Part shown: piece by piece, positions 15,873-59,661 of the stretch
How positions within the stretch are numbered: the first letter of the stretch is position 1
Layout: every line of letters starts with the position of its first letter
Assembly (NCBI GenBank): GCA_003176995.1
Contig: QHBN01000013.1
Location: 27,593-91,592, forward strand
Origin: Candidatus Nitrosopolaris wilkensis
GTDB lineage: Archaea > Thermoproteota > Nitrososphaeria > Nitrososphaerales > Nitrososphaeraceae
Length of the DNA: 64,000 nucleotides
Direction of reading: 5' to 3'
The notes under the pieces: generated by a model
Databases searched by the model: none
The model's input: the letters and a program-made list of their open reading frames with translations, nothing else
What the model was told of the DNA's origin: nothing
Program-made: the position numbers and the translations under genes

Positions 15873-17039
15873 TTAGATAATATTATTTTTTTTCCCAATG
15901 ATCTCGAAAGAGTCAGCCGCAGTGAGAAGGTCACTCTTAGTGTGCAAGGAGGTCACAGTCAGCCTGAGTCGAGCCTTTCCCTTCCCCACAGTAGGGTACC
16001 TAATAGGTTGAACGAAAACACCATCGAGCATTAACTCGTTAGAAAAATCGACCGCTAATTTTTCATCACCTATCATCAAAGGGATAATCTGGCTGGCGTT
16101 CTTGTTAATCGAAAAGCCTAGATCTGTCAATTTTTTGTAAAAAAATTCAACATTTCTAAATAGCCTATGTTGCAGATTTCCTTTTTCTGCAAAAGGAATG
16201 GCTGCCAGAGCTGCTGCAGACAAATGCTCTGGCAACGCGGAGGTATAAATGAATTGACGTGATTTATTGATCAAAAGTTCCCTAACCAACGTAGAGCTTG
16301 CGACATATCCACCGAAGCATCCTAACCCCTTGCTCAAACTGCTGACGTTAACGTCTATCATCCCTTTAACATCAAAGTACCCCGGTACGCCAGAATAGGA
16401 GCCAGGCGAGCCAAATATAAAATCCCCATGAGCATCATCTACTATCATCATGGCATTATACTCCTTCGCAAGGCAACAAATCTGATCTAGGGCGGAAAAG
16501 TCTCCATCCATACTGAAAACACCTTCAGTAATTACAATCTTATCGCCAGTAGTTGAGCGTAGTAGGATCTCTAGATCTTCGAGATCGTTATGACGGAAAA
16601 CCTTGATAATTGCACGACTTAGCCTACACGCATCTATTATGCTTGCATGGTTGAGTTCGTCGCTGATTATCGTTGTACGCTTGTTGGCGAGTGAAGTAAT
16701 GACCCCCAGATTTGCCATATAGCCATTCGGATAAAGGAGTGATGATTCTGTATCTCTGTGTTTTGCGATTTGCTCTTCGAGCTCTAATAACTTTGGAGCA
16801 TTTCCAGCTACTAACCTAGAACTGCACTGTGACATATGGCGTAACGAAAATCGAGCTTCCTTAAGGACTCGCGGATTCCTAGATAATCCGAGATAATCAT
16901 TTGAACATAAATGGATTTTTTCAATGCCATTGATTAATGCTCTAGCTCCGTAGACCTCAATCCTATGCGGTCTCCTATACAAGTTATATTTTTTAAGCTC
17001 AGCGAGCTCAAGTTTAATAGTATTACCTGTGAAGACCAA
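15873..17039 (-). CDS. bioF: 8-amino-7-oxononanoate synthase
   Basis: CSNDYLGLSRNPRV; GSSRLVAGN-like CSSRLVAGNAPKLLELE; VDDAHGDFIFG; SSLSKGLGCFGGYV. Confidence 0.92.
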   Translation of the reverse strand: MVFTGNTIKLELAELKKYNLYRRPHRIEVYGARALINGIEKIHLCSNDYLGLSRNPRVLKEARFSLRHMSQCSSRLVAGNAPKLLELEEQIAKHRDTESSLLYPNGYMANLGVITSLANKRTTIISDELNHASIIDACRLSRAIIKVFRHNDLEDLEILLRSTTGDKIVITEGVFSMDGDFSALDQICCLAKEYNAMMIVDDAHGDFIFGSPGSYSGVPGYFDVKGMIDVNVSSLSKGLGCFGGYVASSTLVRELLINKSRQFIYTSALPEHLSAAALAAIPFAEKGNLQHRLFRNVEFFYKKLTDLGFSINKNASQIIPLMIGDEKLAVDFSNELMLDGVFVQPIRYPTVGKGKARLRLTVTSLHTKSDLLTAADSFEIIGKKNNII

Positions 17040-17994
17040 TTTCGTGTATCATCTGAAGGTCCTTGTCCGGGCTATTTCCGCCGACCGTGAGATATCCACC
17101 GGTGATCAACCCGTTTGCGCCTGCTCTCAAAGCCAGTCTGCCATTATCCTTCAAATGCAGCTCTCTTCCGCCGGCTAGCTTCAGAATTGTCTTAGGCATT
17201 AAAAATCGCCAAACCGCAATTGTTCTTACAGCATCATCGACTGCGATCTGAGGAATTTGTGCTAGAGGAGTTCCCTGCTGGGACACTAAGATATTCACCG
17301 GAACCTCTTCTGGCCTAAGCGAAGCAATAGAAAAGCCCAGTTCTAGCCTCTGTTGAGGAGTTTCCCCCATTCCAATGATTCCTCCACAACATAGTTCCAG
17401 CCCCTCGTCTTTTACAATCTGCGCAGTCTTCATTCTGTCAGCGAAATCGTGTGTTTTACATATTTTTGAAAAGTAACTTTCGGCTGCCTCTAGATTATGA
17501 TTGTATCGTTTGACCCCAAGAGATTTTAGTTTACTAGCCATTGCATGCGTCATGAATCCCAGCGAGACATTAATATCAATGTCCACCTTGTTCTTTATTT
17601 CCACAATAGTTTTGCAAATCTGTTGAAAATCTTTTTCTGGTGGTGCCCTATAAGCACAAACAAGGCAAAAACTTGAAGCACCACCTTCTTTCGCTATCTG
17701 TGCTCGTTGTAATATTACTTCTGTGGGCAAAAGTGGATACTTATTTATCCTACTATCATAAAACGATGATTGTGAACAAAAGGAGCAGTTCTCGGGACAA
17801 GCGCCGGACTTTGCGTTTAGCAGCATTTCGACATCTACCTTATTCGCATTAAAAGCTCTTGTAATCGTGTTCGCGCATTGGGCTAGGGTTCCAATATCCT
17901 CTGTGAAAAGTAATCGCTCCGCTTCTTCAAAAGAAACAGCCAAGCCGGCGAGGACGTTATCGGTCTTATCATGGATGAAGTCATGATTCTGCAT
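17023..17994 (-). CDS. bioB: biotin synthase (radical SAM)
   Basis: GACPENCSFCSQSSFYDS (CxxxCxxC); YNHNLEAAESYFSKI; GGIIGMGE; ANGLITGGYLTVGG. Confidence 0.96.
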   Translation of the reverse strand: MQNHDFIHDKTDNVLAGLAVSFEEAERLLFTEDIGTLAQCANTITRAFNANKVDVEMLLNAKSGACPENCSFCSQSSFYDSRINKYPLLPTEVILQRAQIAKEGGASSFCLVCAYRAPPEKDFQQICKTIVEIKNKVDIDINVSLGFMTHAMASKLKSLGVKRYNHNLEAAESYFSKICKTHDFADRMKTAQIVKDEGLELCCGGIIGMGETPQQRLELGFSIASLRPEEVPVNILVSQQGTPLAQIPQIAVDDAVRTIAVWRFLMPKTILKLAGGRELHLKDNGRLALRAGANGLITGGYLTVGGNSPDKDLQMIHEIGLHR

Positions 17995-19042
17995 GGAATT
18001 GAAAATATATTGACCACATTTAACTTTTTGAATATTCGTAAATTATCTTGCAAATTATGACGGTTGGGATATTTCAGAATTCGAGTGTAGAAATGTGAGC
18101 GAGCGATTATGCGCTTTCCATCTAGTGTGAAACGGCATAAAACTAAGGGTTAGGTAGCATATTATCCTACAAAAAGCGTGAATATGAGCAGATGTTCTCG
18201 GGGAAGTGTATTGGTGGGAATAATCGCGGCTAACAGCTTATGTCGATGGGCCGTAGAACGAATTTCGTTACAGATACACATCTTGTAGAATGTTCAGATA
18301 CGGGTCCTTTTTTGGAAGGACTAAAAAATACTCCCATTTTTTTACCTTCGACTTTGTGTTCAACTAAATTTCGCCTGTACGCGCCTTTTTATACTTATTA
18401 TCGCACTTTATTGACACCAGTATAGTTAAGGGTAAAGTAACTGGTCCTTACTTGTGAAATGTGCTTTTGGATACCTGAGGGTAAGTACAGAAGAACAGAC
18501 GATTCTGAATCAGAAGATGGTACTACAGAAGTGGGCAGATGAACGTGGGTACCAAGTAATTGATTTTTTTGAAGATTCAGCAGTGAGTGGGAAAATCCCG
18601 GCAGTAAAAAGAAAGGCATTTCAAGAGATGCTAGAACTCGTGAGGATTGCATCGATAGATGCCATATTGGTGTATGAGCTCTCACGTGTTGGTAGAACTT
18701 TTTGGGACACCCTTGATGCAATCAAGGCAATTGAGGAATATGCACCGCTAATCTCATGTTCGCCAAGAGAGTCTTTTTTGCAAAACACCGAACCTAGTGT
18801 AAGAAGGCTGATGATCGGCATTCTCACATGGGTAGCAGAGAGGGAGCGCGAAATGTTAGTACAGCGGACTAAGGATGGCATGGCTAGAGCAAAAGCCTCA
18901 GGAAAGGCAATAGGGAGACCACACAAAACACTCGATAAAGACTACCTGATTAAGTTGTTATCAGCAAATACTCCTAGATCCAAAATAGCAAAAGCACTTG
19001 GGGTTTCGAAAGCAACGCTTTACAAGGAGTTACGAGAACTCA

Positions 19043-21152
<2,110 letters not shown>

Positions 21153-25512: not shown

Positions 25513-25616
25513 CGCCGCTGATCAGACTCGAACTGATGACCCACTGGTTAACAGCCAGCTGAACTCCAATGTGAAATCACATATGAATTTGCTCTACCAT
25601 GCTGAGCTACAGCGGC
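25513..25616 (-). tRNA. tRNA-Asn(GTT) with 30-nt intron (25559-25588) at position 27/28
   Basis: Acceptor GCCGCTG/CAGCGGC with G73; T-arm ATCAG-TTCGAGT-CTGAT; anticodon loop CTGTTAA. BHB: central helix GAGC/GTTC, bulges AAA and AGC. Splicing restores stem ACTGG/CCAGT. Confidence 0.9.
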
Positions 25617-47227: not shown

Positions 47228-47307
47228 AGCATGGGAGCTGGGGATGATCAGTTGACTTTCGCAAATGCTAGTCACGGTTATATAGTGTTCTCGCGACACG
47301 AAAATGT

Positions 47308-47470
47308 CCCGCGGTAGCTCAGCCTGGTAGAGCTTTCGGCTGTAGATGTTGGCTGACTTAAGAGCTGACCACGTGAAACGGCCTATCGGGCTACAAAGAC
47401 AGAGACCGAAGAGTCGCAGGCTCAAACAAGCTAGTGACTAGCTAATTTGGAGTAAATCCTGCCCGCGGGA
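47308..47470 (+). tRNA. tRNA-Tyr(GTA) with two introns (47346-47404 at 37/38; 47426-47455 in the T-loop)
   Basis: Acceptor CCCGCGG/CCGCGGG with C1-G72 and A73 (archaeal Tyr identity). Anticodon stem TTCGG/CCGAA. BHB 1: helix CTGT/ACAG with AGA bulges. BHB 2: helix GCTC/GAGT with AAA bulges and inner helix CAA/TTG. T-stem GCAGG/CCTGC. Mature length 74 nt. Confidence 0.92.
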
Positions 47471-48578: not shown

Positions 48579-49946
48579 ATGCTCGATAATTTACGTACGG
48601 GTCTTCGGAGCGCGTTGAAAAAGATTGTTGGAGCATCTGATATAAACGAGGAAATTATTGAATCTTTATGTAAAGATGTCCAAAGAGCCTTATTACAGTC
48701 AGATGTCAATGTTAGATTAGTTCTATCAATTACCAATAACCTGAAGCTTCGTGCGCTAAATGAACAGCCTGTGAAGGGACTTTCGAGGAAAGATCATATT
48801 ATTACGATTCTTTATGGCGAGCTAGCAAATTTGCTTGGCTATACAGGCGAAACGATCAAAAACATTGACAAAATCCAACGCCTACCGGATGATGGCCTAT
48901 CTTTCAAAGCTGGAGAGCAAAATATTGTGTTGATGCTTGGTATCCAAGGAAGCGGCAAAACGACCGTCACAGGCAAGCTTGCTAGGTGGTTGACAAGACA
49001 CGGCTACCGTGTAGCGGTTGTCGGGGCGGACACTTGGAGGCCTGGTGCGCTGACACAATTGAAAACGAACTGCGGCAAGGTAAACGTGGAGGTGTTCGGT
49101 GATGAAGAAGATAAGGATGCCGTGAGTATTGTAAAAAACGGACTAGCCCATTTCAAGAAGCAGGTTCTTGATGTAATAATCATAGACACGGCAGGTAGGC
49201 ACAAGGAAGAAAGAGGGCTATTGGAGGAAATGAAAACCATGTACGAAGTCTCCGAACCCGACGTTGTGCTCCTTGTAGTCGACGGGACAATTGGACAGCA
49301 GGCATATAGTCAGGCAAAAGCATTCCACGAGGCGGCACCTGTGGGAGGCATAGTCATATCCAAGCTCGACGGTACCGCAAAGGGTGGAGGCGTCATTGCG
49401 GCGTCGGCCGCAACCGGGGCTCGCGTGATGTTTATAGGAACTGGAGAACGCATCGATGACTTGGAACAGTTCTCCCCCACCCACTTCGTGGGAAGAATAT
49501 TGGGGATGGGAGACATCAAAGCCCTACTAGAAATGGCAAAAAGCCTAGAGTTGCAAGCGGACGAAGGACAGGCTAAACGACTTCTAGGTGGTAAAATGAC
49601 GATCGAAGACTTTTACGCGCAGATGGAAAACGTGGGAAAAATGGGCTTTAAGAATGTAATTGACAATTTGCCGGGATTGTCAGGAATGGTGAAAGATGAC
49701 CAGCTTGAGGCGTTACAGGAAAAAATGGAAAAATGGAGATTTATTATTCAATCCATGACAAAGATCGAAAAACGCAGCCCTGATATAATGAACGATTCGC
49801 GGAGGAAGCGCGTAGCAAGGGGTTCCGGTATGAGTGAACATGACGTCAAGGAGTTAGTAAAACAATATAACAATTCTAGGACCATGATGAAACAAGCAAA
49901 AGGTAGACAAATGCAGGGTATGCTAAGGAGATTCGGTATTGGTTAA
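48579..49946 (+). CDS. srp54: signal recognition particle GTPase SRP54
   Basis: MLGIQGSGKTTVTGKLARWL; VVGADTWRPGALTQL; IDTAGRHKEE; KLDGTAKGGG; methionine-rich M domain. Confidence 0.97.
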   Translation: MLDNLRTGLRSALKKIVGASDINEEIIESLCKDVQRALLQSDVNVRLVLSITNNLKLRALNEQPVKGLSRKDHIITILYGELANLLGYTGETIKNIDKIQRLPDDGLSFKAGEQNIVLMLGIQGSGKTTVTGKLARWLTRHGYRVAVVGADTWRPGALTQLKTNCGKVNVEVFGDEEDKDAVSIVKNGLAHFKKQVLDVIIIDTAGRHKEERGLLEEMKTMYEVSEPDVVLLVVDGTIGQQAYSQAKAFHEAAPVGGIVISKLDGTAKGGGVIAASAATGARVMFIGTGERIDDLEQFSPTHFVGRILGMGDIKALLEMAKSLELQADEGQAKRLLGGKMTIEDFYAQMENVGKMGFKNVIDNLPGLSGMVKDDQLEALQEKMEKWRFIIQSMTKIEKRSPDIMNDSRRKRVARGSGMSEHDVKELVKQYNNSRTMMKQAKGRQMQGMLRRFGIG

Positions 49947-51066
49947 TGCTCAACCGCGTCAGTCCCTTAAACTAGAATTAAGAAAGCATTACAACCTGTG
50001 CAGCCATTGTATTAGTCGTCACCTTAAAGTTGGCAGAAGCAGATTGCTTGATGACGATTTCGATAGATGCTATATCTGCTGCGGACTAATGAACAGATTA
50101 GACTTCATAATTGGACGCATCGAGGAGAAAGTAAAAGAGGTTTATGAATTTGACACTTTCATTATAGGGGCCATTCTTCCACCCGACATTTATGAACGGG
50201 AAGACCAAATTAGAGCTCGGCTTAAAATCAGAGGAAAAGAAAGCATAAAAAACCAGCTCTTAATCGAACTCAGACGTAAGTTCGAAATTATTACGAAGAA
50301 AAAAATCGACTATCTCTTACCAGACGTCTCGATAACCGTAGCTGTCGGAAACGGGATGGAAGTCAACGTGGCCGCAAAGGCACGTACGTTAACTCTTGCG
50401 GGCCACTATATTAAAAAACAGAGGGGCCTGCCTCAGAAGCAAACTAAGTGTACGTACTGTGAAGGCAGAGGATGCGGATTTTGTAGCAATTCAGGCCTCT
50501 CTGGGTACCGGAGTGTTGAAGGTATTATTGCACATCAACTTATGTGTCTCACGAAGAGCCACGCTCCAAGATTTTCATGGGTGGGGAGCGAAGATCAGGA
50601 TAGTCTTGTCTCAGGCGAGGGTAGGCCTTTTTTCGTGCGTCTATCCGATCCAAAAGTTAGGGTCTTAAGAAATAATCTGAATATTGATACTCCAGAGATC
50701 TATGCAGTTATAGAGGCAAAACCAAAATGCGTTCCCCGATCGCCAATCCGATTCCTCACCAAAACAAAAATCCTTGTGGAAAGTGCGAATACCATTACTG
50801 AAAATAATCTCCAAGACCTGAATCTATTAAATAACGCAACGGTACAATTTCAAAACAAAGATAAAATAATTACAAAAAAGATCTATTCCGTCGAAGCTCG
50901 AAAGATAAAAGATAATCGCTTTGAGCTTACTCTGTTGGCGGATGGCGGATTTGCGATAAAGAAATTTGTTAGCGGTCTACAAAACACGTCACCAAATGTT
51001 TCCAATATTGTGGGGAATAAATGCGAAAGTATATTGTTCGATATATCAGATATAAATATACAGTAA
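49939..51066 (+). CDS. pus10: tRNA pseudouridine synthase Pus10
   Basis: N-terminal CSHC/CYICC zinc sites; KARTLTLAGHYIKKQRGLPQ; CEGRGCGFCSNSGLSGYRSVEGIIA; EDQDSLVSGEGRPFFVRL. Confidence 0.9.
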   Translation: MVNAQPRQSLKLELRKHYNLCSHCISRHLKVGRSRLLDDDFDRCYICCGLMNRLDFIIGRIEEKVKEVYEFDTFIIGAILPPDIYEREDQIRARLKIRGKESIKNQLLIELRRKFEIITKKKIDYLLPDVSITVAVGNGMEVNVAAKARTLTLAGHYIKKQRGLPQKQTKCTYCEGRGCGFCSNSGLSGYRSVEGIIAHQLMCLTKSHAPRFSWVGSEDQDSLVSGEGRPFFVRLSDPKVRVLRNNLNIDTPEIYAVIEAKPKCVPRSPIRFLTKTKILVESANTITENNLQDLNLLNNATVQFQNKDKIITKKIYSVEARKIKDNRFELTLLADGGFAIKKFVSGLQNTSPNVSNIVGNKCESILFDISDINIQ

Positions 51067-52781: not shown

Positions 52782-52871
52782 CGGGCCCGGTGGGCTTCGA
52801 TCCCACGACAACTGGCTTCGGAGGCTTATGCTGCCGCGATTAGCACCCTATCCTGGCTGGGCCACGGGCCC
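52782..52871 (-). tRNA. tRNA-Arg(CCG) with 15-nt intron (52826-52840) at position 29/30
   Basis: Acceptor GGGCCCG/CGGGCCC with G73; T-arm GTGGG-ATCGAAG-CCCAC; anticodon loop CTCCGAA. BHB: outer AGG/CCT, bulges TAA and AAG, central helix GTGC/GCAT. Mature stem CTAGC/GCCAG has an A29-C41 mismatch. Confidence 0.82.
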
Positions 52872-59573: not shown

Positions 59574-59661
59574 GGTGGGGTGGCAGAGCGGCCATGCGTT
59601 CGCCTGCAGAAAAAACCCTGTAGTGAGCGAATATATAAGGGTTCGAATCCCTTCCCCACCT
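59574..59661 (+). tRNA. tRNA-Cys(GCA) with 16-nt intron (59610-59625) at 37/38
   Basis: Acceptor GGTGGGG/CCCCACC with U73 (Cys identity); anticodon stem TTCGC/GCGAA; BHB helix CTGC/GTAG with bulges AGA and TGA; T-arm AAGGG-TTCGAAT-CCCTT. Confidence 0.92.

Follow-up and report, generated by a model that had tools for sequence, protein, structure and literature searches.

A conserved core in the anticodon intron of archaeal tRNA-Tyr points to a probable H/ACA-like guide for its own precursor

The window, i.e., the whole 64,000-nucleotide stretch of Candidatus Nitrosopolaris wilkensis DNA that was analysed, carries a tRNA-Tyr(GUA) gene that is interrupted by two introns, one in the anticodon loop and one in the T-loop (Table 1). 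A sequence-only reading of the locus had proposed introns of 59 and 30 nt and a 74-nt product, and these coordinates proved exact: removal of 47346-47404 and 47426-47455 yields an RNA of 74 nt that ARAGORN calls tRNA-Tyr (gta). The anticodon GUA and the Tyr identity elements C1-G72 and A73, the latter already pointed out in that reading, are all present in the host tRNA-Tyr. A putative TATA box precedes the gene at a distance that fits an archaeal tRNA promoter. The same reading had regarded another intact tRNA-Tyr gene as a possible objection; we found no second copy in the host genome (3.97 Mb, assembly 97% complete). In its unspliced form the gene was called in the window neither by ARAGORN nor by the Rfam tRNA model, so standard annotation can miss tRNA-Tyr.

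Table 1. Features of the tRNA-Tyr locus (positions within the window)
Feature	Position	Strand	Remarks
TATA-like box TTATATA	47278..47284	+	read from sequence, 24-30 nt upstream of tRNA
tRNA-Tyr(GUA) gene, precursor	47308..47470	+	single copy
Exon 1 (positions 1-37)	47308..47345	+	spliced product accepted by ARAGORN as tRNA-Tyr gta
Exon GGCTG (30-34), guide partner	47338..47342	+	complementarity; stepwise covariation at position 31
Intron 1 BHB helix CTGT/ACAG	47340-47343 / 47399-47402	+	
Anticodon G34 U35 A36	47342..47344	+	U35 = 47343, proposed pseudouridylation target
Intron 1 bulges AGA, AGA	47344-47346 and 47403-47405	+	
Intron 1, 59 nt, position 37/38	47346..47404	+	BHB helix and bulges
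Intron 1 hairpin, 5' strand GTTGGC	47348..47353	+	covariation, 41 sequences
Intron 1 hairpin, 3' strand GCTGAC	47364..47369	+	covariation, 41 sequences
Guide element CGGCC	47379..47383	+	pairs with exon 30-34, U33·G here; CAGCC in most relatives
ACA box	47393..47395	+	14 nt downstream of guide start (15 in most relatives)
Exon 2 (positions 38-58)	47405..47425	+	
Intron 2 helix GCTC/GAGT	47420-47423 / 47450-47453	+	BHB-type site
Intron 2 bulges AAA, AAA	47424-47426 and 47454-47456	+	BHB-type site
Intron 2, 30 nt, T-loop, 58/59 (or 59/60)	47426..47455	+	BHB-type helix and bulges
Exon 3 (positions 59-73)	47456..47470	+	

The host genome encodes two PF01974 splicing endonuclease proteins. One of them (L039) aligns along its length with crenarchaeal chains of known structure and retains the catalytic Tyr, His, and Lys, and the other (L040) lacks the histidine of the catalytic centre. 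Their sequences suggest an enzyme of the two-subunit heterotetramer type in which L039 would be the catalytic and L040 the structural subunit. The two-subunit heterotetramer, like the epsilon-2 form, is a type of endonuclease able to cut non-canonical sites. A review assigned the two-subunit enzyme to Thaumarchaeota and linked it to unusual introns (PMC4090602).

Intron 2 had been described as a bulge-helix-bulge (BHB) intron. The helix and the two AAA bulges are indeed there, but on the 3' side U60 and C61 lie between AAA and the T-stem, making the motif a relaxed one and not a strict 3+3 bulge-helix-bulge. The two-intron gene was found whole in 33 of 37 Nitrososphaeraceae genomes sampled by taxonomy, the host included, and the other four are incomplete assemblies (59-79% completeness). 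Fifty named records show the T-loop intron pattern under the labels Nitrososphaera, Nitrosocosmicus, Nitrososphaeraceae or similar; a few further labels (Nitrosopumilus sp., Nitrosopumilales, 'bacterium') are probably loose. In the 51 distinct Nitrososphaeraceae sequences, GCTC is invariant on the 5' side of the helix and the 3' strand reads GAGC, GAGT, GGGC or GGGT. Each of these variants pairs with GCTC, so that the helix is kept in 51/51 sequences and cannot be put down to chance. The bulges are AAA or AAT on the 5' side and AAA, AGA or ATA on the 3' side, and the variable bases are those that are intronic under the canonical cut. This favours cleavage at 58/59 over 59/60, an ambiguity of one nucleotide that leaves the mature RNA identical here.

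The sequence-only reading had seen the interest of intron 2 in its rarity outside Thermoproteales, which turned out to be a weak argument. The tRNAscan-SE 2.0 study already catalogued 107 non-canonical tRNA introns in Thaumarchaeota and uses a dedicated Thaumarchaeota intron model (PMC8450103). Beyond Nitrososphaeraceae, both other families of the order and families outside the class have members whose tRNA-Tyr is interrupted in the T-loop, at this site or a neighbouring one, and many relatives have no such intron. Intron 2 shares the BHB-type helix in the T-loop with the non-canonical introns of Thermoproteales and Thaumarchaeota (T-loop 59/60) but differs from them in its relaxed 3' side, in its likelier cut at 58/59, and in its conservation across an entire family of soil archaea. 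Position 59/60 is also the site at which permuted tRNAs of Thermofilum are joined (PMC3218864). The T-loop intron is thus a plain BHB-type intron of an already-known sort, ordinary for Nitrososphaeraceae, and taken alone it matters mainly for annotation, as an essential gene is missed by standard tRNA searches.

The C at position 54, which had been called unusual, is present but not special. Two more tRNAs of the host genome (L005, L063) have C54, as do relatives without a T-loop intron (L166, L176, L182), and C54 is therefore not tied to that intron. A gene for a Pus10-like tRNA pseudouridine(54/55) synthase lies 2.5 kb downstream of tRNA-Tyr (49939-51066, plus strand); it matches Pfam Pus10_C and falls just under the NCBIfam cut-off. 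C54 of the nearby tRNA-Tyr cannot become pseudouridine. Three host tRNAs (L003, L071, L193) have C55 in a T-loop of the form TCCAAAT or TCCGAAT and would be without pseudouridine 55.

What the sequence-only reading missed is the unusual part of the gene, a core of the anticodon intron that is conserved throughout the phylum; as a whole, its interpretation is partly supported. As a splice site, intron 1 is regular: the CTGT/ACAG helix of 4 bp and the two 3-nt AGA bulges are confirmed, and excision gives a good tRNA. At E values up to 10, the anticodon intron matched nothing relevant in Rfam. The core consists of a hairpin, a short linker, the motif CAGCC, about ten nucleotides (URYCARGC and two free bases), and ACA, in this order. 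In most introns only about 1-3 intron bases precede the hairpin, and the linker between hairpin and CAGCC varies, mostly from 2 to 10 nt. CAGCC, which we call the guide, is the complement of exon G30-G34, and this exon segment ends directly 5' of U35. In Nitrosopumilaceae the fifth position of the guide can be A or G, which suggests that four pairs are enough.

The guide followed by ACA at 14 or 15 nt was present in all 51 distinct Nitrososphaeraceae introns, as against 3.9% of dinucleotide shuffles. This set was collected by exon sequence alone, and frequencies were taken from it because the search pattern behind the phylum-wide table of guide variants allowed certain letters only. A covariance model of the core matches 230 of 250 genomes of the class. 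Across the phylum it matches 95 of 250 genomes, about 50 of them outside the class and from roughly 18 families; because the model used to find introns outside the order includes the core, the fit of these introns is partly by construction. Over 125 introns of the whole phylum, guide and ACA are 15 nt apart with few exceptions, which have 14 nt and include the host. In three introns (L044, L051, L057), insertions within this interval are offset by deletions and the spacing is kept. Among aligned relatives the core of intron 1 does not drift, unlike intron 2.

The hairpin is free in sequence and compensated in structure, with five of its six pairs changed on both sides among 41 diverse sequences. 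For a model of two helices, 31 cells were changed on both sides, a value reached by none of 500 shuffles; the alignment used (A2) has three sequences that are off by one in the guide (L044, L188, L257), which lowers the pair counts. At position 31, the exon-guide pair changes stepwise within one genus, being G-C in L242 and L243, G·U in L255, and A-U in L187 and L251-L253, and this covariation represents one lineage. Covariation in the guide duplex is rare because the exon side hardly varies. Several low-frequency guide changes preserve pairing through G·U, although the search pattern favoured such letters. An additional lower stem formed by exon GCUU with intron ARGC was considered but not supported, as the exon changes there without matching changes in the intron.

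The ACA box has two settings. Where the intron is compact (54 cases), the BHB strand is ACAG, invariably paired with CUGU, so that ACA belongs to the BHB helix and has a further cause to be conserved. In 71 introns, including all those of Nitrososphaeraceae, an insertion separates ACA from the BHB strand. Outside the helix, each position of ACA holds 2.0 bits in 50 Nitrososphaeraceae introns; for 21 introns from elsewhere the values are 2.0, 1.55, and 2.0 bits, and AAA is the only variant. AAA is a known box variant of H/ACA RNAs (PMC7991803). The neighbouring positions are near-random (0.02-0.6 bits), except for +6/+7 in introns from outside the family, which frequently coincide with the BHB bulge.

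Taken together, the complementarity, conservation, spacing, and covariation suggest that intron 1 is probably an H/ACA-like guide, with a 3' guide only, for making pseudouridine 35 (Ψ35) in its own pre-tRNA before splicing. CAGCC would pair with exon G30-G34 in the precursor and leave U35-A36 unpaired between the guide duplex and the intron hairpin. The ACA box 14-15 nt downstream may then recruit Cbf5-Nop10-Gar1, and U35 would be converted to pseudouridine. The precursor would subsequently refold into the BHB form and could then be spliced; both introns would be cut out by the archaeal splicing endonuclease. Modification should come before splicing because the guide duplex and the BHB motif use the same exon bases. 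A Nop10 gene is present in the host genome. When the precursor is folded by MFE, the cloverleaf and the guide form both fail to appear; a cloverleaf is not obtained for the mature tRNA-Tyr either, so energy folding is uninformative for this tRNA. In a wider form, the proposition is that canonical tRNA-Tyr introns throughout Thermoproteota guide their own modification in an H/ACA-like manner, with target and guide in a single RNA, and have been retained for making Ψ35 ahead of their excision; to this we give an even chance.

According to the published rule, archaeal H/ACA motifs carry an ANA box 14-15 nt from the pocket (PMC4652768). Intron 1 has an ANA box at this distance when it is counted from the guide start (it is longer from the intron hairpin), together with a guide complementary to the target 5' of the uridine. 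Other hallmarks are missing. The intron contains no second (5') guide arm and no partner strand for a lower stem of 7-9 bp, and inspection by eye revealed no K-turn or K-loop (L7Ae site), many hairpin loops being 3-5 nt long without tandem G-A. Many Pyrobaculum H/ACA-like sRNAs reportedly rely on the 3' guide only. Canonical H/ACA guides have no gap between upper stem and 3' guide, and the variable linker of intron 1 counts against a canonical pocket. Since K-turn, lower stem, and second guide arm are absent, we do not class the intron as a canonical H/ACA RNA; in our reading it would work like an H/ACA guide.

The conserved core could instead serve splicing only, with two intron hairpins and the BHB helix stacking into a fold that the endonuclease requires. 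The compact introns, in which ACAG is the BHB strand, speak for this explanation, as does a second hairpin GCCU/ARGC that can form in 89% of cells. However, this hairpin shows no covariation above shuffles, for which we rejected it as the reason for the conservation, and the first two bases of CAGCC lie outside it yet are nearly invariant. Moreover, ACA stays invariant even after it has left the BHB helix, and intron 2, in the same gene, combines a BHB-type site with no comparable core. We regard a pure splicing aid as unlikely. Still less likely, in our view, is that both introns are ordinary and functionless apart from being spliced out: the host genome has many intron-bearing tRNAs, as this explanation would have it, but a core kept over the phylum with fixed spacing and covariation makes it barely credible.

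Alternatively, the intron might present U35 to a stand-alone TruD/aPus7, as eukaryotic pre-tRNA-Tyr introns do to Pus7, and the ACA would be incidental. We take the UGUAG of tRNA-Tyr to fit the Pus7 target motif. A full-length TruD/Pus7 gene is present in the host genome and in most relatives (TruD in 49/61), with motifs that look intact in two of the relatives, so Ψ35 might arise independently of any guide. Eukaryotic Ψ35 depends on the intron and is introduced by Pus7 (PMC11408192). On the other hand, five genomes that are 91-96% complete and gave no TruD match (G043, G048, G052, G061, G269) have kept the core, and Pus7 has no known need of an ACA box or of a 14-15 nt ruler; we judge this alternative somewhat less probable than a splicing aid. 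Loss of TruD as a driver was rejected as well, given that TruD presence does not track the intron. The excised intron could also be an H/ACA-like guide in trans, acting on mature tRNA-Tyr or on another RNA, for which the trans-acting box C/D intron of tRNA-Trp, a guide of 2'-O-methylation, sets a precedent (PMC11408192, PMC4090602). Against this stand its single guide arm of 5 nt and the potential of the hairpin, in many species, to include exon base G37 as well, which favours action in cis. We consider a role in trans improbable, more so than presentation to TruD.

Action in cis as an H/ACA-like guide would place the intron close to several known systems. The intron of archaeal tRNA-Trp (Haloferax; Clouet d'Orval 2001, Singh 2004) likewise sits at the canonical position and guides modification of its own anticodon loop, but it is a box C/D guide of 2'-O-methylation, whereas here an ACA box and a single 3' guide would presumably direct pseudouridylation of U35. 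Target base, pre-tRNA, and presumed enzyme would be the same as for the Ψ35 H/ACA sRNA of Sulfolobus and Aeropyrum (Muller 2009). According to PMC7991803 and PMC6313347, which cite this work, Sulfolobus uses a separate H/ACA RNA to make Ψ35 of pre-tRNA-Tyr; there the guide acts in trans, and here its elements lie inside the tRNA-Tyr intron. The H/ACA-like sRNAs of Pyrobaculum (Bernick 2012; Toffano-Nioche 2015, PMC4652768) share a truncated or absent lower stem and an ANA box at a set distance but are free RNAs with a K-turn, whereas intron 1 has no visible K-turn and its target is in the same molecule. As in the eukaryotic Pus7 system, a tRNA-Tyr intron would be tied to the modification of U35, although Pus7 is a protein-only enzyme that uses no guide.

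In the literature searched, which was limited to papers available without subscription, we found no description of an H/ACA-type guide in a tRNA intron, and novelty is therefore provisional. The persistence of tRNA-Tyr introns in archaea and eukaryotes is a standing puzzle, and the eukaryotic intron is needed for Ψ35. If our reading is correct, intron 1 would be, as far as that literature shows, the first H/ACA-type guide in a tRNA intron and an archaeal counterpart of eukaryotic intron-dependent Ψ35. The intron would gain a function, the order of splicing would be linked to modification, and a very small H/ACA-type guide would operate with one arm and in cis. The question could be tested in culturable ammonia-oxidising archaea.

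Further tRNA genes appear to be interrupted in other ways. In L052, L059, and L168, and probably also in L053, L218, L222, and L224, tRNA-Tyr reads as a four-intron gene, with sites in the anticodon stem (about 30/31) and the anticodon loop (37/38) and a further two in the T-arm; the tRNAscan-SE 2.0 study gives a maximum of three introns per archaeal tRNA gene (PMC8450103). Six tRNA-Tyr genes (L057, L172, L173, L175, L188, L189) have an extra D-arm intron besides those of the anticodon and T-loops, and L220 carries an insertion of roughly 60 nt in the D-loop region, apparently another intron. The window holds three more tRNA genes, at 25513-25616 (minus strand), 52782-52871 (minus strand), and 59574-59661 (plus strand), which were found by Rfam and missed by ARAGORN and appear to bear introns. 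Only 35 tRNA model matches in addition to tRNA-Tyr were obtained for the host genome, and about ten expected tRNAs are missing; these may be split by non-canonical introns or fall into assembly gaps. Elsewhere in the window, as read from translations alone, biotin synthesis ORFs (bioF, bioB, bioA, and bioD-like) occupy 15873-21152, and a serine-recombinase-like ORF lies among them at 18454-19104 on the plus strand.
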